This document shows, one piece after another, positions 7,950-22,347 of a stretch of 64,000 bases of DNA. The stretch covers positions 1 to 64,000 of the forward strand of contig JAJEHL010000031.1 of the NCBI GenBank assembly GCA_022823725.1, in the 5' to 3' direction. The number at the start of each line of letters is the position of its first letter. Position 1 is the stretch's first letter. The position numbers were made by a program, and so were the translations under genes. A model generated the notes under the pieces. That model made no database searches and was not told the origin of the DNA. It worked only from the letters and a program-made list of their open reading frames with translations. Source of the DNA: Candidatus Latescibacterota bacterium (GTDB taxonomy: Bacteria; Latescibacterota; UBA2968).

Positions 7950-8012
7950 GATTACCCCTATGCAAAGATAGGTTTGGTTTTTTGCGAACCCGCATAGAAA
8001 GGCCGCTTTGAA

Positions 8013-8537
8013 TTACGTTTGGAGCTTTTGAAAGGCTTTAAGAGTTGATGGATCAGTGACTATTTCCCTTGCGGCTTCAATCGTCAACCATTTGGCGGTA
8101 TAAAATTCCTGAAGGTCAATGTTGAAATTACTTCCATCTGTAAAAAGCAAATACCAGATGTCGTAATGAGACTGACAGGGTTGTACAGGATTATCTATTG
8201 GTGTAATGGTAAGCAAAAACGGTTGTGGTTCAGATTTGAAAAAGCTCCATATTCCCAATTCTTCACCTATCTCACGGTTCAAAGCTGCCAAAAGCGTCTC
8301 GTCTTTATCTATATGACCACCAGGAGAAAGCCAAAGGCCAGACTTTTTATGGTGAATGACAAACACCTTTTTGCTCTGGAGATCATAGGGCAAAAAATAG
8401 ACACAAAAATGGGTCTCCGGATTTTCATCTCGCGTTGGTTTTCCTTCTTTCACTCTTTGTTTATAGCGATTATAGGTTACCCCATTGTCACATATATCAC
8501 GGTCGATAACTTTTGCAATTGATTCTTGTGTTTTCAT
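8013..8537 (-). CDS. Nudix hydrolase
   Basis: This 174-aa protein has a complete Nudix box at 74-96: G74, then E80, then REIGEELGI, which binds the divalent metal and positions the diphosphate of a nucleoside-diphosphate-linked substrate. The preceding SGLWLSPGGHID and the hydrophobic strands fit a single Nudix fold, with a roughly 40-residue N-terminal helical extension. The start ATG at 8537 lies some 50 bases downstream of the DUF4838 gene stop. The substrate (sanitising or signalling nucleotide) cannot be assigned. It is probably cytoplasmic. Confidence 0.9.
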   Translation of the reverse strand: MKTQESIAKVIDRDICDNGVTYNRYKQRVKEGKPTRDENPETHFCVYFLPYDLQSKKVFVIHHKKSGLWLSPGGHIDKDETLLAALNREIGEELGIWSFFKSEPQPFLLTITPIDNPVQPCQSHYDIWYLLFTDGSNFNIDLQEFYTAKWLTIEAAREIVTDPSTLKAFQKLQT

Positions 8538-8590
8538 ATTTGATTCTTCACCTTACCGGCTGGTAGGGGAGAGACTCTGATTCTCAGACT

Positions 8591-10567
8591 TTAACGTTGC
8601 TCCGGCGACTTTATTCGCTTCACGACGGGCGCTCTCTTCCTTGGAGGATAATCTGGGTGCAACCCGGCCATTCGCGGCGTCTGGGGACGGATCGGTCCCC
8701 AGTTGATCGCATAGGGGTGATCCTTACAGAGTTGCTCGATTTTTCTCCAGGCGGCGAGTACGTTCGCCTGTCCGTTTTTGTCTCCGTTCCAATACCGGGT
8801 CATGCCAGCGCGAATGTCGATCATGTGGCGGGTGTGATCCAGGCCTGTGCGGACGAAATCGATCCGCGCCCCGAATCGCTTCGGTTCGTCCGCAACCTTG
8901 CGTGACGCCTGGTCGAGTAGCGCGTAAGCGCGGTCGAAGAGTGCCTTGTCATAGACATCCGGGTATGCTCGTTCACTTGCCCAAAAGATGTTGCGCGTCT
9001 CCTCCATCAGATTCCAATAAGCCTCGAGTTCCGGAGCTGCTGGGCCGAATGCACGTTGATAGTAATTCTGTAGAATCGCCTGCCCATCCTGCGACGGATC
9101 CCACAAGAGATGAGCCATAAGATAGTATTGTGGTCCGTGCGTTGCCCAGTGTTCCCATACCATATCGACAAAGATGCCCATCGCTTTTTCGCCGATCAGT
9201 TTGAAGTCCTCGGTTGCTTGTATGAGAGCCACATCCGGCTGTCCCTGAGGCCAGCCCGCGGGGTCACCGACATTGGGTCGCCACATCATGTGCTTCGCGA
9301 CCTTCGACCACGCGATGTATTGCTCTTTGTGTGTGGAACCCCTGGTCGAACCACGGTCGATCAGGCCGTCCCGGTTGAGGAAATTCGCCACGCTTGCCAC
9401 AATGACATTCTCTGCCGGAACTTCGCGAATCGGAGCAGGCCGGGAATGCCCGTAGGCCAGCATCATGACATAGTAGTCTCGATCCGGATAGCACTGCTTG
9501 AGTAGCCGCGCACATGTGTTGGCAAACCGGACGTGCCGGTCGGATAGTGCGGGCAGTTTCTGCGTGGTCCCTTTCCAGTGAAACGAACGGAGCTCGCCAT
9601 CCGGATGGTCCCAGGCGCGACATGGCTCACAAACACAATGCCCGCTAGCCCAGCCGTCGTTAGGCGACGCATTGAAGACGCGTTGATTTGGGTTTTGTTT
9701 TAGCGCTTCTTCGACATCCGCGAGCCATTGCTGCGGCACCTCCGGATTCGATTGGCACAGCTTGGCGTTTTTGGGTTGTGGAAATCCGCTCCGCGTTCCA
9801 TCAGGCTGAAGGGCGAAGTATTCGGGGTGTGTTTCGTGAAATCGCTCCCACCAGTCGCGGAATCCATGCCCCCCTTCCATTTCGAGGGAACCCAACTGCA
9901 GCCGTTGACGGCGTGTCCACATCTGGGATCGACCGTATGATCCCCTGGGCGCCAGCCTGGAGTAACTGAACAGTCCGGCCCGGAAACGAACACTGGGATG
10001 GTAGCGATATCTGAAGGGCGCGAAGCGGATGGATTCCTGCGGGACGATATCCTCGCCGAGATCGCCGGGCCAGAGCCAACGCACGCCGAGTTGATCGTGC
10101 AGAAACGTATAGATCGCATTTACAGTCCCATACTCTTGCTGGATTCCCTCGACCCGTTTCCTTTTGAACTGTGCAATCATCTGGGTGGGATCCCAACGGT
10201 CTCGCCCCGCGATTACGAGGTGCTTTTCGCTCGCCGCGATGACGATTTCCTCGGGGTGTTGGAAGTCGAAGTCGATCTTTGGAAACAACGAATCAAGCGC
10301 CGGTTGGTAACCCACCCAGATGGCCCGATCTGGGAGTTGGCGGGGTGGACCGTCGATCCATTCCGGCCGTGTGCCACAGGTTTTCTCGATGTAATCGGCA
10401 AGATCAATCGCGGCTTTGCGCGTGAATGGTGGTGCATCTGGAAAGAGGATCAGCGGTGCCGGTTTGATCCCGGCTTTTTTATCGACGAGGGTGAACTCGG
10501 CAGTATCGGCTGCTGAAATCGAGGTTAGCACGATGGAAACGGTGCGGAGCAGCTTGTTTTTTAACAT
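8591..10567 (-). CDS. Secreted DUF4838 family protein (GH67-like, alpha-glucuronidase-type fold)
   Basis: This 658-aa protein begins with a signal-peptide-like segment (KNKLLRTVSIVLTSISAADT). The N-terminal part, with DLADYIEKTCGTRP and AIWVGYQPA, resembles the alpha-glucuronidase-like N-terminal domain. The centre has YGTVNAIYTFLHDQLGVRWLWP and GGHGFRDWW, typical of DUF4838 proteins found beside glycan-degrading genes in planctomycete-like and Latescibacterota-like genomes. The cysteine cluster CVCEPCRAWD is also characteristic. A glycoside hydrolase activity is likely but not established for this family. The C-terminal tail is basic. It lies 9 bases downstream of an MFS gene, so may be in one operon with it. 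Confidence 0.75.
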   Translation of the reverse strand: MLKNKLLRTVSIVLTSISAADTAEFTLVDKKAGIKPAPLILFPDAPPFTRKAAIDLADYIEKTCGTRPEWIDGPPRQLPDRAIWVGYQPALDSLFPKIDFDFQHPEEIVIAASEKHLVIAGRDRWDPTQMIAQFKRKRVEGIQQEYGTVNAIYTFLHDQLGVRWLWPGDLGEDIVPQESIRFAPFRYRYHPSVRFRAGLFSYSRLAPRGSYGRSQMWTRRQRLQLGSLEMEGGHGFRDWWERFHETHPEYFALQPDGTRSGFPQPKNAKLCQSNPEVPQQWLADVEEALKQNPNQRVFNASPNDGWASGHCVCEPCRAWDHPDGELRSFHWKGTTQKLPALSDRHVRFANTCARLLKQCYPDRDYYVMMLAYGHSRPAPIREVPAENVIVASVANFLNRDGLIDRGSTRGSTHKEQYIAWSKVAKHMMWRPNVGDPAGWPQGQPDVALIQATEDFKLIGEKAMGIFVDMVWEHWATHGPQYYLMAHLLWDPSQDGQAILQNYYQRAFGPAAPELEAYWNLMEETRNIFWASERAYPDVYDKALFDRAYALLDQASRKVADEPKRFGARIDFVRTGLDHTRHMIDIRAGMTRYWNGDKNGQANVLAAWRKIEQLCKDHPYAINWGPIRPQTPRMAGLHPDYPPRKRAPVVKRIKSPEQR

Positions 10568-10576
10568 GTGTCATTC

Positions 10577-11839
10577 CTATTCTGTTACAACCGCTTCAGG
10601 TGGGACGCGAACGGATGAAAATATCATGTAGGTAAAGGCCATCATCATTACAGTAGCAGAAATCAATAGTGTTGTCTCCCAGCCAAAAGTTTCACCAAGG
10701 TAACCACCTGACAACGCCGCAATCGGAATTACTCCGAATACGACAAGACGCCTGGTGGCATTGATTCTACCTAACAGTCTATCCGGCGTCACTGCTTGCC
10801 TCAGGCTAATCTGGCTTATGCTAAAGAGGGTCAACGACAGGCTAAAGACCGCCTGGATAGCAATGACGGCTGGGAGCTTCATCCAACCGAAGTGGCCTGC
10901 GAAAGGAAGCACGCCCATCGCAATGCCCTCAAGTAGCAACGCAATAATCATCAACCAGCCTTCACCCATCCGCTTTGCAAGTGGAACAGCGGATAAGGCC
11001 CCGATAATTGAGGCACCTCCTGCAACAGATCCGATGATTCCCAGCCAGATCGGCGTAATGTTCAAGGTGCGAACAAGAAAAAGTGTCCAAACGGTATGTT
11101 GTACAGCACCTGCTGCACTTGCGAGAGCGGTCCCGATAGTCATGGCTCTCAGAATAGGGTGACCAAATAGAGTCGATATTCCTTCCTTGATAGCAGCCAG
11201 TACTCCCTGATCCATCCTGGTCTTGATATCATCAGATTCATCAAATCGGATCCTCGATAGGCATAGACCAGATAAAAAGTACGAAACTGAATCCACAAGT
11301 ATAGCCAACGGCGCCCCGAGAATATCTACAAGGTATCCAGCCGCTCCGGGGCCTGCTACATTCGTTGTTGAAGTGCTTAGCTGAAGTCGGGCATTGCCCT
11401 CGACCAGATCTTCCCGTTTCACGATGGAAGGCAAAAACGATGTCGAGGCAAGGACGTACATCATCGCGAGGGTACCACTGATAAAAGCTACAATATATAG
11501 CAACTCGATGGATAGCCAGCCAACCAGAGCTGCTGCGGGGACCAGACCTATGACCAATCCTTGTCCGAACGCACTCGAGACCAGTATGGGCTTTCGTTTG
11601 GCGCGATCAATCCAGACACCAGCTATGAGTGCGAAGAGAAGTACTGGAAGATGGCTTGCCGCATTGAGGAATCCCATTTCCTTCGCGCCAACCTGAAGCG
11701 TTATCACTGCAACAAGGGGGAGCGCAAGGTTGGTGACAGAAGAGCCAAGATCCGAAATCGTGACGCCGCTCCAGAGCCTGGCGAAGTCAGAATTGGAGCG
11801 CGCCAGCCGAAAGAAGCCCCCCTCAGATACCCTACGCAT
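10577..11839 (-). CDS. MFS transporter (MFS_3 / exporter type)
   Basis: This 420-aa, strongly hydrophobic protein has about 12 predicted membrane segments. The N-terminus FARLWSGVTISDLGSSVTNLALPL and the loop GVWIDRAKRKP (motif A-like, near 75-85) match the MFS_3 group that includes EntS-like and macrolide-efflux exporters. It is therefore more likely an exporter than a sugar importer. A second member of the same group is at 14647-15885. The bases upstream (11840-12033) show no recognised gene. The substrate is unknown. Confidence 0.85.
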   Translation of the reverse strand: MRRVSEGGFFRLARSNSDFARLWSGVTISDLGSSVTNLALPLVAVITLQVGAKEMGFLNAASHLPVLLFALIAGVWIDRAKRKPILVSSAFGQGLVIGLVPAAALVGWLSIELLYIVAFISGTLAMMYVLASTSFLPSIVKREDLVEGNARLQLSTSTTNVAGPGAAGYLVDILGAPLAILVDSVSYFLSGLCLSRIRFDESDDIKTRMDQGVLAAIKEGISTLFGHPILRAMTIGTALASAAGAVQHTVWTLFLVRTLNITPIWLGIIGSVAGGASIIGALSAVPLAKRMGEGWLMIIALLLEGIAMGVLPFAGHFGWMKLPAVIAIQAVFSLSLTLFSISQISLRQAVTPDRLLGRINATRRLVVFGVIPIAALSGGYLGETFGWETTLLISATVMMMAFTYMIFSSVRVPPEAVVTE

Positions 11840-12033
11840 TCGAAATACCCTCTCGGTTTGTGAACCCGCGAAGTGCCACAGCGCAACACCGTGCTGTTAT
11901 GTAACGCGATTATCAGGTCAGTTTGGCGAGCAAATCGTCGAACCTATCTTGCATCTCCGGGTGGGGTGACCATTTGACATCTTGACCATCGCCTTGGTGT
12001 CTCTTGGTCACAGGTCTCAGGTCACATTTCAAT

Positions 12034-12606
12034 CTAAGACTCTTGAGATCGAAATAAGCTGTAGATCCATTTGTCCCGACGCAAGAGAAATACATACCGC
12101 TCGGGCAACATGCGGTTGGCAAATTCGCCTCTGCCCGGTCCTGGTGGTACACGCTCTGCCTCCTCGAAACCCAGCCGGCGGAGTAGCCGGACAGACCGTT
12201 TGTTTGCAACAACGCATCTGGCTTCAATCTCGTCCAGGTCCAAATCTTCAAAACCTATCTGCAGAATGCTCCGGACAGCCTCTGAGGCAAAGCCCTGACC
12301 CCAATAAACGGGCGACAATTCGTAGCCTATATCACCTCGTCGGCTCTCAATGCTTTCTGTGCGTATTCCGCAGTTACCGAGTAATACCCCATTTGAGCGG
12401 TTTGTAATGGCCAGTTGGAACTTGCATCTGGGACTTTCTCTGGACCATGCGATGCACTGTTCTACAAATCGGACACACTCCTCTCTGGTGTAGGCGGGTC
12501 TGTAGTAGTATTCCAGATATCTTGGATCTCTCCTGAACTCGGCGATGGCGTCCACATCTTGTTTTGTGAACTCCCTCAGAAGCAAGCGTTCAGTCAGTTT
12601 CTCCAT
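12034..12606 (-). CDS. GNAT N-acetyltransferase, RimJ/RimL type
   Basis: This 190-aa protein starts TERLLLREF, the usual opening of RimJ/RimL-like GNATs. DIGYELSPVYWGQGFASEA carries the acetyl-CoA pyrophosphate-binding motif (Q-G-x-A near 108-113), and ANKRSVRLLRRLGFEEAER is the conserved C-terminal helix and strand. Such enzymes acetylate protein N-termini or small amines in the cytoplasm. The target here is unknown. An overlapping ORF in another frame (11913-12251) continues past the stop, but only its last 40 codons look protein-like. Confidence 0.85.
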   Translation of the reverse strand: MEKLTERLLLREFTKQDVDAIAEFRRDPRYLEYYYRPAYTREECVRFVEQCIAWSRESPRCKFQLAITNRSNGVLLGNCGIRTESIESRRGDIGYELSPVYWGQGFASEAVRSILQIGFEDLDLDEIEARCVVANKRSVRLLRRLGFEEAERVPPGPGRGEFANRMLPERYVFLLRRDKWIYSLFRSQES

Positions 12607-12657
12607 ATCAAATTCCCCAACACACTCGACTGGACATCAGCTTTTCAATTCCCTTTC

Positions 12658-12729
12658 TCAACCTTCAGCCAGCCTGGCGACAGCATGTGCACCGATAAAG
12701 CGCGTGCCACCGATGACGAGTATGTTCAT
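12658..12729 (-). pseudogene. 5-prime stub of an NAD-dependent epimerase/dehydratase gene
   Basis: A 23-codon ORF, too short to be a whole gene, encodes MNILVIGGTRFIGAHAVARL followed by AEG and a stop. This is the first beta-strand, GxxxxIG dinucleotide-binding loop and helix of an extended SDR epimerase (proteins of about 300 aa). The rest is absent: the downstream bases lead to the GNAT gene start at 12606. Upstream is an AT-rich region that may be its old promoter. This is one of several 5-prime stubs in the window. Confidence 0.65.
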
Positions 12730-12829
12730 GATATTATTCATATAGATTTAGATTGATCCAAAAGTGCATCCGCTCTTGCGTATAAATTGAGAAAGCGTCT
12801 AAGCCGAAATTGAAAAAACGCTTGCATTT

Positions 12830-13000
12830 TTTACAAGGAGGTGATGCGCCTGTGTAAAATGATGACGGTTCCTCTATGAGGGAGAGGCATGCGTATGCCA
12901 CGAACGAGAATCGAACGGAAACAACAGGTTACGCTATTCGCTTTGAATGGCGTTTTTTTTGCGTCGGCCACTGCACAAATGGATGCTGTGGCCTTTTTTA
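12830..13000 (+). promoter_or_regulatory. Structured leader with tandem intrinsic-terminator hairpins before the aldo/keto reductase
   Basis: Two terminator-like structures follow each other just ahead of the aldo/keto reductase start. At 12932-12952 an 8-bp stem (CGCTATTC paired with GAATGGCG, loop GCTTT) is followed by eight T. At 12966-12993 a stem of GGCCAC, one T-T mismatch and GCA (loop of eight) is followed by six T. The second ends only about 14 bases before the start codon, with the ribosome-binding GGAGG in between. Upstream are smaller hairpins, including GGCAT-GCGT-ATGCC and a full-strength AAGGAGGTGAT. This could be an attenuator/riboswitch-like leader or a small RNA gene with its own terminators. 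No known RNA family was recognised. Confidence 0.45.
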
Positions 13001-13026
13001 TTTGGAGGTGCCTATGGATATCCTGA
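12889..13026 (+). other. Small ORF or MFS N-terminal remnant overlapping the aldo/keto reductase leader
   Basis: A 45-codon ORF (ATG at 12889 or 12895, with GAGAGG upstream) encodes RIERKQQVTLFALNGVFF and then ASATAQMDAVAFF. This resembles the first membrane helix of an MFS transporter. It ends by overlapping the start of the aldo/keto reductase in another frame. It could be a transporter stub, a coupled leader peptide or coincidence, because the same bases form two terminator-like hairpins. No choice can be made from the sequence alone. Confidence 0.3.
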
Positions 13027-13976
13027 AAGATGGCTGCTGTCCGCGGCGACGTTGGGGAAAAACGGAATTGTCCATCCCGGTAATTGCCTTTGGAAGTGAT
13101 GGCTTTGGCAATCGGTTCGGCCACGTAAGTGATGAAACTGCCATAAGGCTCATGCAACGCGCTGTCGAACTGGGTGTCAATCACTTTGACTGCGCTCGAT
13201 GCTATGGAGATTCACTACGCAAAATAGGGTTGGCAATCAAGCAAAACGCAATCAAACGAGAGGATTTAATCATCACTGGCCGAATATGTTGTCACGGTAG
13301 CGGTCAATGGGGGCTCTTTGGAAAAGGAGATCCTGAATATGCATCAGAAGTCGCTGATTATTCGTCAGATCGCGTGCTACCAGATATTGAAGATCAACTC
13401 AAACGCTTGGAAATCGACCGCTTTGATGCGCTGCTCATTCACGGCCCCTGGCCTGTCGAACCATCCCTTGCACCGGGCGGTATTCTCGAAGGTCTGGAAC
13501 AAGCCCGAGATCGCGGTCTGGTAGATTTTATCGGCTATGGCATGCATCATCCTCCCTTTCATTTGAAAGCCATTGAATCAGGGCGGGTCGATGTCCTTTT
13601 GACCTACTCTGATTACAATCTGCTTCGCCAAAATGCAGCGGATGATATTCTGCCAGCGGCGGCAGCGCATGACATTGGGGTACTCAATGCCTGGTCTATT
13701 TTTCGAGGTTGGCTAACGGGTTTACCCGTTGAATCGTTTGTCCCTCGACGGGAATGGAATGAGGATCACCACCGGGCTGAAAATATCCGGCTCTGGTGTG
13801 AATCGCAAAATGTCGATATGCTCCAACTCACTCTGCAATTTTGCCTGCGAGAAGCTCGAATACACGGCAATCCAATTGGCATGATGAACATTGAACAGTT
13901 GGAAATGAACGTGGCTGCTGTATTAAAACCACTGCCCGATGAAGTCTTCGGCGCTTTCAAACTGGCGCACTTATGA
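13014..13976 (+). CDS. Aldo/keto reductase family protein with altered catalytic lysine position
   Basis: The ATG at 13014 follows GGAGG at good spacing, giving 320 aa. The TIM-barrel pattern of AKRs is clear: RRWGKTELSIPVIAFGSDGFG at the start, NHFDCARCYGDS containing the catalytic Asp and Tyr, LLIHGPWP with the histidine, and a C-terminal region for NADP(H). The strand that normally ends in T-K reads IITGRICC, so the catalytic lysine seems missing, with an arginine one place on. Activity as a normal carbonyl reductase is therefore uncertain; AKR-fold dehydratases or epimerases are possible. It is the lone plus-strand gene between minus-strand neighbours and has its own structured leader. 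Confidence 0.8.
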   Translation: MDILKDGCCPRRRWGKTELSIPVIAFGSDGFGNRFGHVSDETAIRLMQRAVELGVNHFDCARCYGDSLRKIGLAIKQNAIKREDLIITGRICCHGSGQWGLFGKGDPEYASEVADYSSDRVLPDIEDQLKRLEIDRFDALLIHGPWPVEPSLAPGGILEGLEQARDRGLVDFIGYGMHHPPFHLKAIESGRVDVLLTYSDYNLLRQNAADDILPAAAAHDIGVLNAWSIFRGWLTGLPVESFVPRREWNEDHHRAENIRLWCESQNVDMLQLTLQFCLREARIHGNPIGMMNIEQLEMNVAAVLKPLPDEVFGAFKLAHL

Positions 13977-13991
13977 CCATCCCTCACTTAA

Positions 13992-14363
13992 TTAAATCTT
14001 CACATTGGCATATAAATTGACGATGTTCCCATCCGGGTCACGAAACCAAACGGATCGGCGCCCCCACGGCTGGGTTGTAGGCGGTTTAACAATTTCAACA
14101 TTCAGGGTCTTCAAACGCTCAAATTCACGGTCAACGTCTTCTACCTCAAACTCGATCGTATAGCTACCATATCCGGTCCCCTTCAAGTATCCAGGAGCCA
14201 TCTTCTCCATGCGTTCTGAGGAGAAGATTGACAAAACGGCACCCTCTGTTGGAATGATTTCAGATATATTCCCTTCTTCTGGTTCAAGTTTTAGGATTTC
14301 TCTGTAGAAAGCGCATAATCTGTCCACATTCTGTGTTATAATACAAATACCATTGAACCGCAT
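13992..14363 (-). CDS. VOC (glyoxalase/bleomycin-resistance-type) protein
   Basis: This 123-aa protein has the paired beta-alpha-beta-beta-beta modules of the vicinal oxygen chelate superfamily. The first module (FNGICIITQNVDRLCAFYREIL) and second (GSYTIEFEVEDVDREFERL, then WFRDPDGNIVNLYA) are each complete. The acidic metal ligand in NIVNLY-type strands is not obvious, so metal dependence is unclear. Proteins of this size act as dimers in glyoxalase, dioxygenase or antibiotic-sequestering roles. It is convergent with the aldo/keto reductase, 15 bases away. Confidence 0.85.
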   Translation of the reverse strand: MRFNGICIITQNVDRLCAFYREILKLEPEEGNISEIIPTEGAVLSIFSSERMEKMAPGYLKGTGYGSYTIEFEVEDVDREFERLKTLNVEIVKPPTTQPWGRRSVWFRDPDGNIVNLYANVKI

Positions 14364-14477
14364 GATGAATCTCCAGAAGTCTTAGAGTGGAATTCTTTTG
14401 GACGACTAGCTGCCAGCTCTTTTCGCCCCTGTCATATATCGTCTGGATTCGCCACTGATGTCAATTAGACACGAAAT

Positions 14478-14583
14478 TGGCAGAGGGTGTGGGGATCGAA
14501 CCCATATACGAGATATCCCGCAGGATACCCGTAGCCCTCGGTTTGGAAGCCCTCGGGGCCAGTACCACTGGCTCTCACCCCCT
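14478..14583 (-). tRNA. tRNA-like gene with 8/4 fold, 6-bp D stem and long variable arm (SelC/allo-tRNA-like)
   Basis: The 106-nt sequence has an 8-bp acceptor stem (AGGGGGTG with CACCCTCT), discriminator G and an encoded CCA. It has a T arm TGGG-TTCGATC-CCCA of 4 bp with a consensus T loop, a D arm GCCAGT-GGT-ACTGGC of up to 6 bp, and a 10-bp variable arm (ACGGGTATCC, tetraloop, one bulge). This matches tRNA-Sec or the 8/4 allo-tRNAs rather than canonical tRNAs. The anticodon arm is abnormal: CCGAGGG occurs on both sides of CTTCCAAA as a direct repeat, so only CCC/GGG and GG/CC pair, with tandem G-A mismatches between. No UCA anticodon is present, and identity cannot be assigned. A TATTAT -10-like box lies 5 to 11 bases upstream. 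Confidence 0.6.
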
Positions 14584-14646
14584 GCTCAATAATACGACGC
14601 TATCATAAAATGGAATGTTTCGGATGGGACAGGGAAGACGATACAG

Positions 14647-15885
14647 TCACGGTTCTTTGTCTTCGATACGAACAACGGACGGAATCATCCGAGCAGATGT
14701 TCCGAGAACGAGGGTCAGCACTCCTGCTGCTAAAAACCACGGCTGTGGTCCAAATACATCCGTTACAGGACCTATTACGATGAGACCGAGCATTGTTGTA
14801 GATTGGACAGAACTATGAAGCGCGCCAAATACGCGGCCTTGTAGATGGGGATCGACATTGGCCTGAAGGAGCGCCCGGAGAGGCGCATTAATTAGCGAGC
14901 TACCGACGCCGCTTAAAGCTATGCCCGTGATGGCTAAAGCAAGGCGGGTATGAGGGGCTATACCCACGAGTATTGTTCCAATGCCATACACGATCCAGCC
15001 GAAGATCGTCGTCATGATTCGACGACGAAATCCACCCCAGGCTCCAACCAGAACGCCTCCCAGGACAATGCCCATTCCCCAGGCAGAATTAAACCAGCCA
15101 AGTTCGGTAGCACCTCCATTGAAGTGATCTGTTATCAAGAGGGGAGAGATGGTCATCTTCGTGTTCCCAAATATGTTTAATACGGCAGCAATCAAGAGTA
15201 CATTCCGAAGACCATGCCATCTCCACAAATAACGAAATCCTTCCTGCATATCAGCCCAAATTCCGTCCACTTGGCTTCGCTTCTCCTCCATCCTTTTGGG
15301 CTGTGGAATCATAATGAAGATGAGGGGGACAATAGCAAGCATCGCCGTCAAAACATCGATGGCCAATATGAGATGTATTTCGAACACAGCCAATGCCAGT
15401 GCGCCAAGGGGAGGCCCTCCCATACTGAGTGCTCCATGCAGGGTTTGATTCGTCCCCTGAATCCTGGCCAGATGTTTTTCGGGCACCATCAGAGGCGTGG
15501 AAGTTATCATTGCCAGGCTCTGGAATGCACGGCCAATACTCGCCAGGAAATTTACTGCGTAGATATGCCAGATCTCGATAATGTCCATCCAGAAAAGACC
15601 AGCGAGACCGGCCATGGCTGCCGCAACAAGCGTATCCGAGACGATCATTACGATACGGCGGTTCCATCTATCGTTCAGTGTGCCAATGATGGGAGCCAGG
15701 AAGACTTCTGGTAGATAGGCGACAAGGACCGAGGTCGCGAGAATGGTAGCAGATCCTGTCTTTTCCGTAAGCCACCAGACCAGGGCAAACTGTGCAACTT
15801 GAGTTCCAAGAGATGACAGCGTTTGTCCAGTCCAGATGGTAAAGAATCCGCCAGCCCATGCCCCGTCTCTATTCAGATGAATCAA
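14647..15885 (-). CDS. MFS transporter (MFS_3 / exporter type), second copy
   Basis: This 412-aa polytopic membrane protein has WTGQTLSSLGTQVAQFALVWWL in helix 1 and GTLNDRWNRR as the cytoplasmic motif A loop. The second half has a repeat-like helix bundle with GRVFGALHSSVQ, as in the EntS/multidrug-type MFS_3 branch. Its start codon overlaps the stop of the upstream 2H-phosphoesterase gene (ATGA), indicating translational coupling. It is related in type to the transporter at 10577-11839 but clearly diverged from it. It probably exports a metabolite or drug; the substrate is unknown. Confidence 0.85.
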   Translation of the reverse strand: MIHLNRDGAWAGGFFTIWTGQTLSSLGTQVAQFALVWWLTEKTGSATILATSVLVAYLPEVFLAPIIGTLNDRWNRRIVMIVSDTLVAAAMAGLAGLFWMDIIEIWHIYAVNFLASIGRAFQSLAMITSTPLMVPEKHLARIQGTNQTLHGALSMGGPPLGALALAVFEIHLILAIDVLTAMLAIVPLIFIMIPQPKRMEEKRSQVDGIWADMQEGFRYLWRWHGLRNVLLIAAVLNIFGNTKMTISPLLITDHFNGGATELGWFNSAWGMGIVLGGVLVGAWGGFRRRIMTTIFGWIVYGIGTILVGIAPHTRLALAITGIALSGVGSSLINAPLRALLQANVDPHLQGRVFGALHSSVQSTTMLGLIVIGPVTDVFGPQPWFLAAGVLTLVLGTSARMIPSVVRIEDKEP

Positions 15886-16469
15886 TCATATCTCCTTTTA
15901 CCTGAATCGGCGAGAAAGAACGTTCCCCTCTTTTTGAACCGAAAATTTTCATCGGGAACGACGAACGCCAGTTTATCACACAAAAAAGAGCCAGACGGAG
16001 CTGAATTTTGGAGCTGTGCACAAAGCTCAAGGCTCTCGTCTATGGATATGAATTCAGCAATGGTCATGTGCGGAGCTATGTTGCGCCGGTGATACGCTTC
16101 GTCGGAAAATGCCGATGTACCGTGGAGGATCTGCTTTAAATTATCGATAGGCTCTCGTGGCCTTATAGGATACGAGACACCGGGGTGCCTGGTTGAGGCA
16201 TGCGGCTTGTCGTAATGAAGCGTGAATGGCTGGACATCAGTAATGACATTGTTGATTTCATCGATAAGATCAGGCGTCATTTCCCGGCTCAAGGGATCTG
16301 ATAAAGAGAGGTGTGTCGGACAGGAGTTAGCCGAGCGGGGATCATACTTTGCTCGCAAGAGGTCGATCTCCTGAGATACCTCTGGAGGGGGCATGATAAG
16401 GATAAGGCCTAATCGGTAGTCGCGTTGCCAATCTTCCCACTTTGATGTGTCTTTTGCGTATGGAATCAT
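15882..16469 (-). CDS. 2H phosphoesterase / 2-5 RNA ligase-like protein
   Basis: This 195-aa protein carries two H-x-[ST]-x motifs, HLSL near 53 and HMTI near 134, placed symmetrically as in the 2H phosphoesterase (LigT/CPDase) fold. Each histidine motif ends a beta-strand of the duplicated lobe. Family members open cyclic phosphates or ligate/cleave 2-5 RNA linkages in the cytoplasm. The stop overlaps the start of the MFS gene by 4 bases. The substrate is not predictable. Confidence 0.75.
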   Translation of the reverse strand: MIPYAKDTSKWEDWQRDYRLGLILIMPPPEVSQEIDLLRAKYDPRSANSCPTHLSLSDPLSREMTPDLIDEINNVITDVQPFTLHYDKPHASTRHPGVSYPIRPREPIDNLKQILHGTSAFSDEAYHRRNIAPHMTIAEFISIDESLELCAQLQNSAPSGSFLCDKLAFVVPDENFRFKKRGTFFLADSGKRRYD

Positions 16470-16529
16470 GAGGAACTTTCACGGGGTAATGGCATCGATG
16501 TAATTGGCAATAAAATCCGCCTGATTTTT

Positions 16530-17036
16530 CTATGAGATAGCCTGTGTGATCCGAATAGAGCCTTCCAAAAGAATCTCTCTGTGTTCGTCTTTTCTCTCGG
16601 TTTTCCAGTATTCTCGTGCCCTCTCAAACATTGATCCGAGAGTTTCAGACTCTTCAAAATAGCTTATGAGATCCATATTCGCAGCAAACACACGAGAGCA
16701 ATCAACAATCTCAACTTCGTAGAGTTCAGCATCTGCTCTTTTCGAATTGAACCGTCTGGCAACACGCTCATCTGTCCAGAGAAAGAGGCAATCAAATCGA
16801 CTTGGTCTATATGGAAACTCTCTGAGGCGAACCGTCTCCCAAGCGACTTCCAACAGGACACTGCCCGTTGAGGCCGCATCTGGAACCGTCACGGTGAGAG
16901 GATTGGTTTGCACTTCGATTAGGGTTTGGCGTATCAGATGGTCTTGAAAGTTTCCCGGCTTCACAAGGGTCCCAGGGGAAAGCCCGGACTTCGCTGACCA
17001 AAATAGTAGAGATCCTCGACCAATATCAAGAGCCAT
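16530..17036 (-). CDS. DUF2441-like protein of unknown function
   Basis: The start is set at 17036, after GGAGGATCC at suitable spacing; the frame is open to 17111. The 168-aa product contains FPYRPSRFDCLFLW, then RRFNSKRADAELYEVEIVD. This resembles the DUF2441 pattern in which a query domain resembles ADP-ribosyltransferase-like folds, but the match is by eye and weak. After the TAG stop at 16530 the same frame stays open for 16 more sense codons (KNQADFIANYIDAITP) before a second stop. The stop may therefore be recent, or the tail may be a coincidence. It has no membrane segment. Confidence 0.45.
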   Translation of the reverse strand: MALDIGRGSLLFWSAKSGLSPGTLVKPGNFQDHLIRQTLIEVQTNPLTVTVPDAASTGSVLLEVAWETVRLREFPYRPSRFDCLFLWTDERVARRFNSKRADAELYEVEIVDCSRVFAANMDLISYFEESETLGSMFERAREYWKTERKDEHREILLEGSIRITQAIS

Positions 17037-17137
17037 TGTGTTGGATCCTCCCTTTGGCCACTTCTTTCGAGAGTGATATATAAGATTGAAAATAAATACT
17101 TTATAAAGCACACTGCTTGATTCTAAATTGAAACCGC

Positions 17138-17596
17138 TTACAGTCTCTTTTCAAAAAAAATCACATCAAATCCAGATATCTTCTGTCGTTCAATTTCACA
17201 ATATCCATTTTTTTCATATAGTTTGCGAGCAGCAATCTGCTGCACTGTTGTATCCAGGCAGAGTATTTTATACCCCAGATCATCTGCTCTCATCTCAAGT
17301 CTGTTCAGAATCGTCTGACCAAATCCTCGTCTTTGAAAATCAGGGTGAACGCGCATCCTTTTAATCTCTGCCTTCTCATCTGAAATTCGTTGCAAGGCAC
17401 CTATTGCAACCAATTTTTCTTCGCAGAATCCTGCCAAAAATTCGCCTTTATCAGATAGATATGTCTCTTCAATCGTATGAAGGTCATTGTCTTGTGCACC
17501 GCTGCCAGCATTCGCGCCAACCTGATCCAGTGCTAAGTTGTGTAGATTCCAAACTTCATTGTGGTCAGAAGCCCGATAACGACGAATTTTCAACAT
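17138..17596 (-). CDS. GNAT N-acetyltransferase
   Basis: This 152-aa single-domain acetyltransferase has MRVHPDFQRRGFGQTILNRL containing the acetyl-CoA pyrophosphate-binding signature RRGFG (about residues 85-95), followed by the helix and final strand CLDTTVQQIAARKLYEKNGY. This is the classic Acetyltransf_1 arrangement. The acceptor is unknown. It lies about 20 bases after the alpha/beta hydrolase stop on the same strand and may be the last gene of that cluster. Confidence 0.9.
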   Translation of the reverse strand: MLKIRRYRASDHNEVWNLHNLALDQVGANAGSGAQDNDLHTIEETYLSDKGEFLAGFCEEKLVAIGALQRISDEKAEIKRMRVHPDFQRRGFGQTILNRLEMRADDLGYKILCLDTTVQQIAARKLYEKNGYCEIERQKISGFDVIFFEKRL

Positions 17597-17617
17597 AAAT
17601 ATCTCCTTGAGTGTGTG

Positions 17618-18640
17618 CTATCGTTGGGTTTGTGGACGGCTCTTCAGCCACCAGCGCATGGTATTACTGACCATATCCGCTGCGTCTCGTTGAACCCAAT
17701 GGCCGCTGCTGGGGATGGTGACGAGTGTGTAGTCTTTGTTGATCCAATTCCACGTGTCGCGTAACCCGTCTTTGTCAACAGCCTTGTCTTTCAACCCGTG
17801 GAATTGCAATACGGGCATGGTGAGATTGGGCATCTCCAGGCTCTGGCCAGCCCCCGCAGTTAGACCGCTATAGGCCGCCCGGTAGTAGTCGAGCATGCCC
17901 TTGACCGAGGATTGGGAGAACGCATTGATGTAGCGCTGCCGCACTTCGTCTGAGGCATTACCTGCCGAAATACGTGTAAGCACCTCGGGCGAGAACCGTT
18001 TTTCGTATCCAGGCGTTTGAAAGTCGGTAATGTATTGCGTATTCCTCTTTTGCTCTGCCGTCGCGTTACGCAGCACGGTGCCGTAGCCCTTCGGGTGAGT
18101 CAGATTGCAGATCACCAGCTTGTTGACGAGTTGCGGATAGTGCATGGCGAACCGCCACGAAATGGCGCCACCCCAATCGTGACCAACGAGGGTGACCGAG
18201 TTGACCTCCAGATCCTTGATCACAGCTTCGACATCCGACATGAGATGGGACATGGTGTAGTATTCCACGCCTTCGGGCTTGCCGCTCTTGTTGTAGGCGC
18301 GTGTGTCCATAGCGACGGTCTTATAGTTGTCGGAAAGAGCGGCTATCTGTTCTCGCCAGGTATACCAAAAATCGGGAAAGCCATGGACAAAGAGAATAAC
18401 GGGGCCTTCGCCCAAGGTGACGTAGTGGAGTGCCACCCCGTCGTTATCCGTCTCATGGTGCTCAACGCGGTCGAATACATCCGCCTTGACGTTAGCTATC
18501 GGGGATTTGACGGCACCCTTTAGGCGTTCCTGCTGCGCCTGCCCCTGGGCGAAGAAAATGCAGGAGCAAAAGGCAGTGACCACCAGTATTGAGCGTGTCA
18601 TGCGTTGTTTGGTTCGTTGCGACGGTTTCATGGCGTTCAT
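17618..18640 (-). CDS. Secreted alpha/beta hydrolase, epoxide hydrolase-like
   Basis: Taking the ATG at 18640 gives 340 aa, starting after the upstream sulfatase stop and placing a signal peptide (MTRSILVVTAFCSCIFFAQG) near the N-terminus. The oxyanion motif HGFPD, the nucleophile elbow GHDWGG with an Asp nucleophile, an acid near LKDKAVD and the base in SSGHWVQ are all in order. Asp as nucleophile and HGFPD point to epoxide hydrolases or haloalkane dehalogenases rather than esterases. The protein probably acts in the periplasm. It is the downstream end of a long minus-strand cluster with sulfatase, PLP decarboxylase and PhyH genes. Confidence 0.8.
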   Translation of the reverse strand: MNAMKPSQRTKQRMTRSILVVTAFCSCIFFAQGQAQQERLKGAVKSPIANVKADVFDRVEHHETDNDGVALHYVTLGEGPVILFVHGFPDFWYTWREQIAALSDNYKTVAMDTRAYNKSGKPEGVEYYTMSHLMSDVEAVIKDLEVNSVTLVGHDWGGAISWRFAMHYPQLVNKLVICNLTHPKGYGTVLRNATAEQKRNTQYITDFQTPGYEKRFSPEVLTRISAGNASDEVRQRYINAFSQSSVKGMLDYYRAAYSGLTAGAGQSLEMPNLTMPVLQFHGLKDKAVDKDGLRDTWNWINKDYTLVTIPSSGHWVQRDAADMVSNTMRWWLKSRPQTQR

Positions 18641-18660
18641 CGTTCCAATGGTTTGGGGGA

Positions 18661-19863
18661 TCAGGCTTTTGATGTTTGTTGGGCTTCGCACGCTTGTTTC
18701 CAGACATGATGTTCTGTCATCATCTCCTCAACTTTTTCAGGGGCAGTGGCGCGCAGATCGCGTTGTTCTTCGGGATCGGTGCTCAGGTCGAACAGGCCGT
18801 CTGGCTTGCCGTTTGTGGCGTGGAGTTTTAGATTGCCCTCGCGGATCGCGTCCTCTGTTCTATACGTCCAGTGCAGCGTGCGGTCCAGGGGCTGCTCTTT
18901 GCCTTCGAAAAGAGGCCAGGCATTTTGGGCATCGATGACGCGATCGTCGGGCACAGGTGCACCGGCGAGCGCGGCGAATGTCGCGTAGAGGTCATAGTGT
19001 ACCCAGGGGGTGTTGGTTTTTGTATTTGGAGCGATTTTTCCGGGCCAGACCGCGTTGCAGATGACCTTGAGCGAACGCTCCCAAAGGGTTCGGCCATAAC
19101 CATTGGTTCGGCTGCCTCCCTGGTCGCTCAGGAAGACGATGAGCGTATTTTCCGCAATACCGGCATGGTGTACCGCATCCAGCACGCGCCCCACGCACAG
19201 GTCCAGGTATTCGACCATATACTGGTAGTTTATCAATGGATCATCGCTGTGATAGTATCCGGGTGGGGCCTGGTAGGGGCCGTGTGGGGCATAAAAGGCG
19301 AGATTCAGGTAGAAGGGGTCTGGCTCTTGGGATTGGCGGTTGATAAATTTGATGGCTTCATCCGTAAACAGGGTATCGAAGTAACCCTCGTGCGCTATGG
19401 GTTCCAGACCGCGAAAAAAGTGGCTTTTCATGTCGCGGTTGTAAAGGTGGGTGTAGTAGTCGGCATGGCCGGCGTTGCTGCCGTAAAATTCGTGAAAGCC
19501 GTGGTGTAGGGGGTTGAATGTTGCAGCATATCCCAGATTCCATTTTCCAAACAGCCCTGTTGTGTATCCGGCATTGTGCAAAAGCCTGGCTATAGAGACT
19601 TCCTGGAGCGAGAGTCCGGATTCTGGATCATCTGGACGTGTCTGTGAGTTGATGCCAACCCGATACGGATGCCTGCCCGTGTTCCAGGCGCAACGCGCTG
19701 GTGAACACAGCGGGGTTGCGATCAGGCAATTGTCGAATACGACACCTTCGCTCGCCATTGTGTTCAATCTGGGCGTTTCGAATATCCCTTCGCCATAATA
19801 ATCAACGGCTTCGCGACCGAGGTTGTCGGCGACCATGAAGATGATATTGGGATGATTTTTCAT
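18661..19863 (-). CDS. Type I sulfatase (formylglycine, Cys-type), no signal peptide
   Basis: This 400-aa sulfatase begins at once with PNIIFMVADN, leaving no room for a signal peptide, so it is probably cytoplasmic. The formylglycine motif is C53-S-P-A-R57 followed by TGR. FGKWNLG and FYAPHGPY supply the conserved lysine and histidines. The second metal-binding segment reads LSDQGG rather than SDHG/SDNG, a slight variation. It is shorter than many family members. It lies between a PLP decarboxylase and an alpha/beta hydrolase. No maturation enzyme is in the window. The substrate is unknown. Confidence 0.9.
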   Translation of the reverse strand: MKNHPNIIFMVADNLGREAVDYYGEGIFETPRLNTMASEGVVFDNCLIATPLCSPARCAWNTGRHPYRVGINSQTRPDDPESGLSLQEVSIARLLHNAGYTTGLFGKWNLGYAATFNPLHHGFHEFYGSNAGHADYYTHLYNRDMKSHFFRGLEPIAHEGYFDTLFTDEAIKFINRQSQEPDPFYLNLAFYAPHGPYQAPPGYYHSDDPLINYQYMVEYLDLCVGRVLDAVHHAGIAENTLIVFLSDQGGSRTNGYGRTLWERSLKVICNAVWPGKIAPNTKTNTPWVHYDLYATFAALAGAPVPDDRVIDAQNAWPLFEGKEQPLDRTLHWTYRTEDAIREGNLKLHATNGKPDGLFDLSTDPEEQRDLRATAPEKVEEMMTEHHVWKQACEAQQTSKA

Positions 19864-19905
19864 TGGAATTTCTCTTGATATTTTGTGTGGGGTTCAGAGG
19901 CAATA

Positions 19906-21327
19906 TCAGTTCTGGGGATCAGTGTGGCTCGCCTGGGCCAGTTCGCGCAGTACATCGACCGCGAAGAGGACGTCCTCCCTCCGACAGTCGAACTGCCCGA
20001 CCTGGAAGCGAATGACGAACTGTCCTTCATGGATCGTCTGCGTCAGGTAGATTCGGCCGTCATCGTTGACCGTGCGGAGCAGGCGTTCAGTGGCGTCGTC
20101 GGCGTTCTCACCGTCGGGAGCGTACTGGAACGTGAAGAGCGAAAGGTGGCAGTCCGTTGTCAGGCGAAATTCGTCCAGCGATGCGATCGCGGCGGCGGCC
20201 TCTTCAGCCCAGGCAATATGGTTCCGGATGCGCTGTCGGAGGTCTTCGAGACCGTGGGCACGGAGCAGGAACCAGAGCTTTAGGGCGCGGAATCGGCGCC
20301 CCAGGGGGATCGTCCACTCGCTGTAATTGGTGATCTCGGTTTGACCGAGGGTCTGGAGGTAATCCGGACGGATGCCGAGGGTGCGAACCTGTGGTTCCGG
20401 GTCCGCGAGAAACTGGATCGAACAGTCGAATTGTGCACCGAGCCACTTGTGGGGATTGAAGGCGATGCTGTCGACTTCCTCGACCCCCGCCCACAACTCG
20501 CGTAGCTCGGGACAAATCATCGCAGAACCGGCCCACGCGGCGTCGATGTGGACATAGAGATCGTGCTCGCGTGCCACTTCGATGGTCTGGTGTACATGGT
20601 CGGATGCGCCAATCGACGTACCTCCAACACAGAGGACGATACCGGCCGGGAGGAAACCCGCGGCACGATCGGCGTTGATTGCCCGGCGGAGCGCTTCCGG
20701 GTCGAGTGCCCAGGAATCATCGGTGGGGACTTTGACCAGATTTCGTTGGCCGATACCGGAGATGCGAATCGCCTTGTCAACCGACGAGTGGGTCTCCGGC
20801 GACGCGTAGATCCGGAGTTGTTTCTCTCCCGCTATTCCAGAATCGATGCCTCGCCAGCCAAGTGCGCGCTCGCGCATCGTCAGTACGGCGCAGACATTTG
20901 CCGATGTTGCCGTATCCTGGATAACCCCCTGGAATCCTTCTGGTAGCCCGAGTGCCTGGCGCATCCAATCGACCATCCGGGTCTCGATTTCCGTAGCTGC
21001 GGGTGAGGTCTGCCAGAGCATGCACTGGGCCGCCATGACCGCCGTTAAATTCTCGGCGATCATCGAAATCGGCGCAGCATTGGCGCTGAAGTACGCAAAA
21101 AAGCGCCGGTGTTGCCAATGCGTCATGCCGTCGGGCACGATGCGCTCGAAGTCGGCGAAGATCGTCTCCATGCCTACCGGCTCTTCCGGTGGCGATAGAG
21201 GCAGCATCGCTGCGATCTCGCCCGGTGCGGTCTGCGCCCGAACAGGTCGGTCTTCGAGCGTGGCCAGGTATTCGGCGCCCCACCGTGCGGCTCGTTCAGC
21301 CCATTGAAAGTAGTCTTCTCGTTTCAA
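19906..21327 (-). CDS. PLP-dependent amino acid decarboxylase (group II, aromatic-amino-acid-decarboxylase type)
   Basis: This 473-aa protein is the full length for group II decarboxylases. The PLP lysine is K294 in FNPHKWLGA, the ring-stacking histidine is H180 in ETHSS, and the aspartate that pairs with the pyridine nitrogen is D262 in HIDAAWAG. The N-terminal FFAYFSANAAPISM segment matches the swapped three-helix region of aromatic-L-amino-acid decarboxylases. It converts an amino acid to an amine and CO2 in the cytoplasm; whether the substrate is Tyr, Trp, Phe or cysteate cannot be read. In this sulfur-rich cluster a sulfur amino acid is possible but unsupported. Confidence 0.9.
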   Translation of the reverse strand: MKREDYFQWAERAARWGAEYLATLEDRPVRAQTAPGEIAAMLPLSPPEEPVGMETIFADFERIVPDGMTHWQHRRFFAYFSANAAPISMIAENLTAVMAAQCMLWQTSPAATEIETRMVDWMRQALGLPEGFQGVIQDTATSANVCAVLTMRERALGWRGIDSGIAGEKQLRIYASPETHSSVDKAIRISGIGQRNLVKVPTDDSWALDPEALRRAINADRAAGFLPAGIVLCVGGTSIGASDHVHQTIEVAREHDLYVHIDAAWAGSAMICPELRELWAGVEEVDSIAFNPHKWLGAQFDCSIQFLADPEPQVRTLGIRPDYLQTLGQTEITNYSEWTIPLGRRFRALKLWFLLRAHGLEDLRQRIRNHIAWAEEAAAAIASLDEFRLTTDCHLSLFTFQYAPDGENADDATERLLRTVNDDGRIYLTQTIHEGQFVIRFQVGQFDCRREDVLFAVDVLRELAQASHTDPQN

Positions 21328-21360
21328 TGCATTGTGTCCAGTTTTTAGAGATTTAGTTCT

Positions 21361-22347
21361 TCAAAGGTAGTCACTGACGTCCATTTCCGGATACGCGTTT
21401 TTTATCAGTTCAACGGAGGTGGGGGTGTACATTGCATCACCGGGTTTTGGCCAGCCGAAGAGACTGCGAACCCTCGATGTCGTTTTTCCCAAAAAGGGTT
21501 TCAAGCGCCGAATCGCCTCACCTTCCCTTTTTCCGGTCGATGTCCATGCCATGGTGTCTCGGCGTCCTATCGAAAAGAAAATGACCGCACGCTGTTTGTC
21601 CTTGTCTGCAAAAGGTTGTGCTGCGTGTGGCGTGTGTCCACTGTAGAAGAGAACGCTGCCAGCTTTTCCGGTGATTGAGACGGGTTCCTGCGCGTGAAGA
21701 ATTTTGCGGATATCGGCAAAGCGGTAAGCGTGAGGCACCTTGCGGATGTCGCCAAAGCCCAGGCCATCGTCCTCAATCACACGCAAGATATCGCCCATTT
21801 TGTCGTGTACTCCTGGGACCAACCGAACAGGCGCGCAATCTTTGTCAATATCGTCCAGAAAGACCCAGGCCTGAATATGGCCATACCGCTGCCAATCTGG
21901 GTGGGGGGGAATAAAGGGTTTGGCCCAATCCAGGTGAAATTCGATTTCTGGCTTCGTTGGCGCTTTTCTATCTATTCTGCCGTTTCGGACATAGACGTAA
22001 CCGTGATGGTAGTGTATATCAGGCGTATCCAGAAGCTGTTCCAGAGCATCCAGAAAAGGATCGTGTTCCAGGACCTGGTCAACGATCTCTACTCCTGTTG
22101 GAATGTCACAGAATTCCGCTCGGGGGCCAGCAAAACCGAGACCTGCTCCGGGTAGGCGCAGCGTATTCTCAAGGTCGGGATTGGCGTTCAATTCGGTCTT
22201 GAACTCCGCAAAAGACTTTCCACCGTAAGCGTTTTGTTCCGCAGCCTCAAGTACCGCTGACAATTGGCTGGTCGAGAACAGATCCGGGACTGTGACGTAA
22301 CCCTCTTGTAAGTAAAATTCATACTGCTCTTGTGTCAGCATTTTCAT
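21361..22347 (-). CDS. Phytanoyl-CoA dioxygenase (PhyH) family Fe/2OG oxygenase
   Basis: This 328-aa protein has the PhyH layout: an N-terminal EQYEFYLQEGYVTVPDLFS, the iron-binding H138-x-D140 in EFHLDWA, a distal histidine in GHTPHAAQPF and a 2-oxoglutarate-binding basic residue in KQRAVIFF. It should hydroxylate a carbon using O2 and 2-oxoglutarate in the cytoplasm. It lies 18 bases downstream of a sulfatase gene and 33 bases upstream of a decarboxylase gene on the same strand, so co-transcription is likely. The long insert around SITGKAGSV is as expected. The substrate is unknown. Confidence 0.9.
   Translation of the reverse strand: MKMLTQEQYEFYLQEGYVTVPDLFSTSQLSAVLEAAEQNAYGGKSFAEFKTELNANPDLENTLRLPGAGLGFAGPRAEFCDIPTGVEIVDQVLEHDPFLDALEQLLDTPDIHYHHGYVYVRNGRIDRKAPTKPEIEFHLDWAKPFIPPHPDWQRYGHIQAWVFLDDIDKDCAPVRLVPGVHDKMGDILRVIEDDGLGFGDIRKVPHAYRFADIRKILHAQEPVSITGKAGSVLFYSGHTPHAAQPFADKDKQRAVIFFSIGRRDTMAWTSTGKREGEAIRRLKPFLGKTTSRVRSLFGWPKPGDAMYTPTSVELIKNAYPEMDVSDYL

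Follow-up and report, generated by a model that had tools for sequence, protein, structure and literature searches.

Structure of the tRNA-like gene and its leader

The window, that is, the whole 64-kb stretch of DNA analysed here, carries a confirmed tRNA-like RNA gene of 106 nt, whose neighbours are a VOC/glyoxalase-like gene and a gene for an MFS transporter. The gene occupies positions 14478–14583 of the minus strand, with A1 at 14583 and the CCA terminating at 14478, and its sequence and fold describe an 8/4 cloverleaf with a long variable arm. Read from 5' to 3', its first half is AGGGGGUG-AGA-GCCAGU-GGU-ACUGGC-CCCGAGG-GCUUCCAAA-CCGAGGG-CU- and its second half ACGGGUAUCC-UGCG-GGAUAUCUCGU-AUA-UGGG-UUCGAUC-CCCA-CACCCUCU-G-CCA. 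The 5' strand of the acceptor stem, AGGGGGUG (14576–14583, minus strand, as are all the following elements), is identical in all copies of the window type and forms 8 bp with CACCCUCU (14482–14489), including a G3·U70 wobble in which U70 is gene position 100. The D arm, GCCAGU-GGU-ACUGGC (14558–14572), has 6 bp and a GGU loop, and is followed by the arm at the anticodon position, CCCGAGG-(GCUUCCAAA)-CCGAGGG (14535–14557), with tandem G·A pairs, by the variable arm, ACGGGUAUCC-UGCG-GGAUAUCUCGU (14508–14532), with 10 bp and one bulged U, and by the T arm, UGGG-UUCGAUC-CCCA (14490–14504), with 4 bp and the loop UUCGAUC. G73 and the CCA (14478–14481) are encoded in the sequence.

The acceptor and T arms of 8 and 4 bp, the 6-bp D stem, the 10-bp variable arm, the G discriminator and the CCA that a first-pass annotation had listed are thus all present and lie on the minus strand, whereas the strand itself, the family described below and the invariance of G3·U70 had been overlooked. 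The same annotation had pointed to a direct repeat, CCGAGGG, flanking the loop; it is indeed there. The arm at the anticodon position pairs CCCGAGG with CCGAGGG through tandem G·A, and the minimum-energy fold (–46.4 kcal/mol), which is the cloverleaf bar a slight shift in the variable arm, pairs the repeat in this way. The UCA anticodon reported as missing is in fact absent, the loop being GCUUCCAAA.

This architecture exceeds chance, since a blind search for an 8-bp acceptor and a 4-bp T stem with a TTCRA loop and NCCA hits this single site in the window and one site across 200 dinucleotide-shuffled windows. The folding energy of the gene by itself is not significant (z = –1.4 against shuffles). 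Neither ARAGORN nor Rfam at gathering thresholds, RF00005 included, reports the gene; the best Rfam family below threshold is tRNA-Sec (RF01852), with 30.4 bits (E = 0.001 genome-wide) against a gathering score of 47.

Immediately upstream lies a conserved leader of about 57 bp (14584–14640, minus strand), a possible promoter region with TATTAT shortly 5' of the gene. The leader is kept in 10 of 10 aligned loci despite their differing gene contexts, and a scan of this region for sigma-70 consensus promoters found none.

Distribution, covariation and genomic setting of the family

The window gene belongs to a previously unannotated family that numbers 30 related copies or more and occurs in one order of uncultured Candidatus Latescibacterota. 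Searching the host genome at DNA level led to a related spot on another contig (C36: 42212–42519, minus strand), where three tandem copies share nearly the same acceptor and T arm and each fold better than nearly all shuffles (z from –2.2 to –2.6). A covariance model, R1, built solely from these three array copies and not from the window gene, scores the latter with 36.5 bits (E = 6.6e-4 genome-wide) as its next best match in the genome, ahead of tRNA-Ser and SelC. Of the 11 genomes of the genus, 10 have one to three array copies by covariance model search, and the order contains three other genera in which the model finds copies. The window-type gene is found in six of the 11 genomes, so that comparison of orthologous loci, as the first-pass annotation had proposed, shows it conserved in five genomes besides the host; three of the six (G003, G004 and G006) have a second copy, a partial copy occurs in G007, and copy number varies among genomes. 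A search of the phylum with model R2 gave no family copies outside the order, and a search of IMG/VR with an exact pattern gave no match. Weak R1 matches at class and phylum level were rejected, those inspected being ordinary tRNA-Ser wherever ARAGORN made a call. What has been written on the phylum suggests that these Latescibacterota may be associated with sponges.

Covariation was evaluated on 22 distinct array-type sequences. In this alignment 97.9% of cells are paired, against 83.6% in shuffled alignments and 47–55% when slid by 1–3 columns, a gap that is still large for an alignment fitted to, and therefore biased towards, the model structure. Sixteen of the 28 pairs are altered on both sides, including all six of the D arm and all five at the anticodon position. 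The covariation of the cloverleaf in these homologues makes very unlikely the suggestion that the window sequence is an unrelated RNA. The window-type copies alone are too similar to one another for such a test; among them, pairing of the D arm is maintained through A-U to G-U to G-C and U-A to U-G changes, with one mismatch in one copy, and that of the variable arm is preserved through a G·U to G-C change in G001, G003 and G006. In nearly all copies the D loop retains GG and the T loop its UUCRA core, which, from general tRNA structure, fits the requirement for a tRNA elbow.

In most of the genus the arrays are flanked by a PhyH gene on one side and a TIM-barrel gene on the other. Around window-type copies the gene contexts change, with sharp breakpoints close to the tRNA-like unit, and the neighbours in other genomes include a PhyH-like or a methyltransferase-like gene (names read from translations). 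Comparison of neighbours over these contexts shows no gene that accompanies all copies, nor are integrases or transposases a rule. FemAB/MurM-type aminoacyl transferases are absent from all family-carrying genomes, with one weak match in a genome lacking the family, and the search for partner genes, by neighbourhood and by FemAB-type co-occurrence, hence returned none. A PIN-domain gene is located near the host's own array. Furthermore, an insert of 26 nt interrupts the T loop in the second window-type copies of G003, G004 and G006 and in one array copy of G006; at the core of this insert is a palindromic repeat that is dispersed over other sites in the genus as well.

Other features of these genomes were recorded along the way. 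A 24-nt palindromic repeat, RAACTTCTGTCGAAGTTGTACRCC, is present in 12 copies in G008 (L097–L119, e.g. G008:C1:320251–320274), mostly with GAT just before it; it is the dispersed repeat that also forms part of the T-loop insert of the four tRNA-like copies. Comparison of positions 8000–21400 of the window with L077–L081 reveals that gene order is strongly shuffled, gene by gene, within the genus, with long stretches of 90–99% identity. In G008 (OY282377.1), 150 bp past a tRNA-like copy, a locus (L090:4294–6401) encodes a TnpB-family protein of 442 aa (NCBIfam guided_TnpB, 248 bits; Pfam Cas12f1-like TNB) and continues with 11 direct repeats, each about 37 nt long, at a spacing of 70–73 nt; because the repeats follow such a protein, the locus may represent a compact type V CRISPR system with a TnpB-like protein at its core.

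Acceptor identity signals and the anticodon position

The two halves of the molecule differ in what has been preserved. The top half, namely the 8-bp acceptor, the T arm, the GG of the D loop, the long variable arm, G73 and CCA, is kept; at the anticodon position the pairing is kept and a normal anticodon loop is not. G3·U70 is present in 30 of 30 family copies, a figure partly favoured by the search, which picks similar acceptor ends. G73 is likewise found in all 30, and GCCA is intact in 27, with a single base changed in the other three. Among host tRNAs G3·U70 is an alanine feature, visible directly in two tRNA-Ala and, allowing for the absence of CCA from its end, in a third; the pair recurs in just one other host entry, a 92-nt 'Pro' call that is dubious. 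The family has G73 and a long variable arm in common with host tRNA-Ser and tRNA-Sec. The family therefore displays a mixture of alanine and serine signals. The host tRNA-Ala discriminator is A73, and G73 in its place would weaken recognition by AlaRS; A1:U72 of the window gene is unlike both the Ala and the Ser tRNAs of the host. Position –1 holds a pyrimidine, C or U, in 29 of 30 copies, where it could form a pair with G73; 27 of these copies also have a G at –2 that could pair with C74.

Loops at the anticodon position are irregular. In array copies they measure 4 nt (AUUG, ACUG, AUAU), 6 nt (AUUCUG) or about 12 nt, some copies bear longer inserts, and the sequences differ without any shared triplet. 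Among window-type copies, those of the host, G004 and G005 and two second copies have a 9-nt loop, those of G001, G003 and G006 and the remaining second copy an 8-nt one, on an arm that includes two G·A mismatches; in the window copy a 7-nt loop, CUUCCAA, with U33 and the anticodon UCC, can be drawn only if a G·A is counted as the closing pair. The tRNA set of the host is ordinary, with tRNA-Gly(UCC) among its members, and SelC and tmRNA are present as well. Hence, with the anticodon loop lost or irregular and the host set ordinary, codon reading is neither needed nor likely.

The host's SelC, with anticodon UCA, is intact and directly adjoins selD (G000:C25; L041:3519–4591), and for this reason the host very likely uses selenocysteine. 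The proposal of a decayed SelC was therefore rejected in the sense of the host's only SelC. SelC ancestry is possible, since the loop region GGGCUUCCAAACC is one base from the SelC sequence GGGCUUCAAACC. A role as tmRNA, or as its replacement, was also rejected: a normal tmRNA lies elsewhere in the host genome (G000:C45:111587–111971), and the window gene is absent among the 16 RF00023 matches.

Proposed role and comparison with known systems

A top half preserved as in a working tRNA, joined to an abnormal codon-reading arm, indicates that the family probably works outside ordinary codon reading. We give slightly better than even weight to the view that the window gene is a member of a lineage-specific, non-decoding family of tRNA-like RNAs, with an architecture akin to that of allo-tRNAs and SelC. 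In the course of events that we envisage, the RNA would be transcribed from its own leader and its ends processed as in a tRNA; it could plausibly receive alanine by virtue of G3·U70, serine by virtue of G73 and the long variable arm, or both; and, once charged, it would have a task other than codon reading, most likely donating its aminoacyl group to a non-ribosomal reaction or serving a tRNA-binding protein as ligand. A narrower version, which we advance tentatively and hold to be less likely, is that these are anticodon-less tRNAs charged with alanine via G3·U70 and serving as dedicated non-decoding aminoacyl donors or sensors, whose anticodon arm would be free to diverge.

Among the competing explanations, which we would rank by our own estimate from an uncharged regulatory RNA through a spreading pseudogene family to a decoding allo-tRNA, the first is unlikely but not negligible. 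In it, the tRNA fold would serve as a regulatory or decoy RNA, for example as ligand of a tRNA-cleaving or tRNA-binding protein. tRNA-Other, a poorly charged pseudo-tRNA acting inside a larger RNA (PMC3399842), provides a precedent, and, in a longer transcript, pairing of the –1 pyrimidine with G73 and of G–2 with C74 would hide the CCA end. However, an RNA with no function at its acceptor end would hardly be expected to retain CCA in 27 of 30 copies and G3·U70 in all, and the PIN-domain gene near the host array, which would fit this explanation, is probably incidental because no gene consistently adjoins the copies. Covarying stems and intact acceptor, T and variable arms across genera would not result from decay, and argue against remains of SelC, or of a tRNA borne by a mobile element, multiplying by duplication as a repeated pseudogene family. 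We regard this explanation as improbable, even though the changing gene contexts and sharp breakpoints of window-type copies, the four copies with a palindromic-repeat insert in the T loop, the partial copy in G007 and the variable copy number would suit it; the place of the arrays between the PhyH and TIM-barrel genes is held in most of the genus, and integrases or transposases are not generally found alongside.

Very improbable, in our opinion, is a decoding allo-tRNA that, charged with serine or alanine, would read GGA via UCC or promote +1 frameshifting via its enlarged loop. The 7-nt loop closed by G·A would supply the anticodon, and allo-tRNAs with such a body, some of them with mixed Ala/Ser signals, inserted alanine and serine in E. 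coli (PMC7609411), but the loop lengths of 9 or 8 nt in orthologues and of 4, 6 or about 12 nt in relatives, and the ordinary tRNA-Gly(UCC) of the host, speak against it. Of the first-pass interpretation there stand the SelC- or allo-tRNA-type 8/4 gene and, from its 'new allo-tRNA isotype', the anticodon stem with tandem G·A; a new decoding isotype is unlikely, and decay of the host's SelC gives way to a possible SelC ancestry.

The non-decoding family that we favour resembles several known RNAs. With tRNA-Sec (RF01852) the window gene shares the 8-bp acceptor, the 6-bp D stem, the long variable arm, G73 and the loop region GGGCUUC(C)AAACC; it differs in its T stem of 4 bp rather than 5 bp (8/4 against the bacterial 8/5 acceptor domain), in having no UCA and in a score below gathering. 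The tRNA-like domain of tmRNA has G3·U70 and no anticodon function, as in the family, and differs in that the window gene has neither a tag-reading frame nor pseudoknots. As is proposed for the family, tRNA-Other of B. cereus is a tRNA-like gene outside translation, and it too is limited to a small group of genomes; unlike the family, it is a single gene with a Trp anticodon, and no sequence kinship is claimed (PMC3399842).

Allo-tRNAs (Mukai et al. 2017, via PMC7609411) are alike in the 8/4 acceptor domain, the long variable arm and the SelC-like body. The 12-bp acceptor domain split 8/4 or 9/3, the long variable arm and G73 that characterize them are all found here, a readable anticodon within a 7-nt loop is not; array copies could also be split 9/3, as some allo-tRNAs are, and G3:U70, present in some of these, is in all 30 family copies (PMC7609411). 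The allo-tRNAs described mostly have usable anticodons, whereas the family has lost the loop or made it irregular, and their hosts are Clostridia, Proteobacteria and Acidobacteria, whereas the family resides in Latescibacterota (PMC7609411). The same account describes irregular, polycistronic allo-tRNA-like sequences from soil metatranscriptomes that were not charged in vitro by E. coli enzymes; compared by description, these share with the family tandem copies and irregular structure, are mostly 8/4, and differ in having G at –1, where the family has a pyrimidine, and an extra loop between acceptor and D stem, which the family lacks (PMC7609411). Metagenomic allo-tRNA-like RNAs with irregular anticodon arms have been noticed before, without known function. 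In the present family, a whole tRNA-like family that escapes standard tRNA finders and Rfam thresholds, strong covariation goes together with an invariant synthetase signal and the lack of a usable anticodon, and the hosts are named, two of them being single-contig genomes; this makes directly testable the question of whether tRNAs are kept for non-decoding work in uncultured bacteria.
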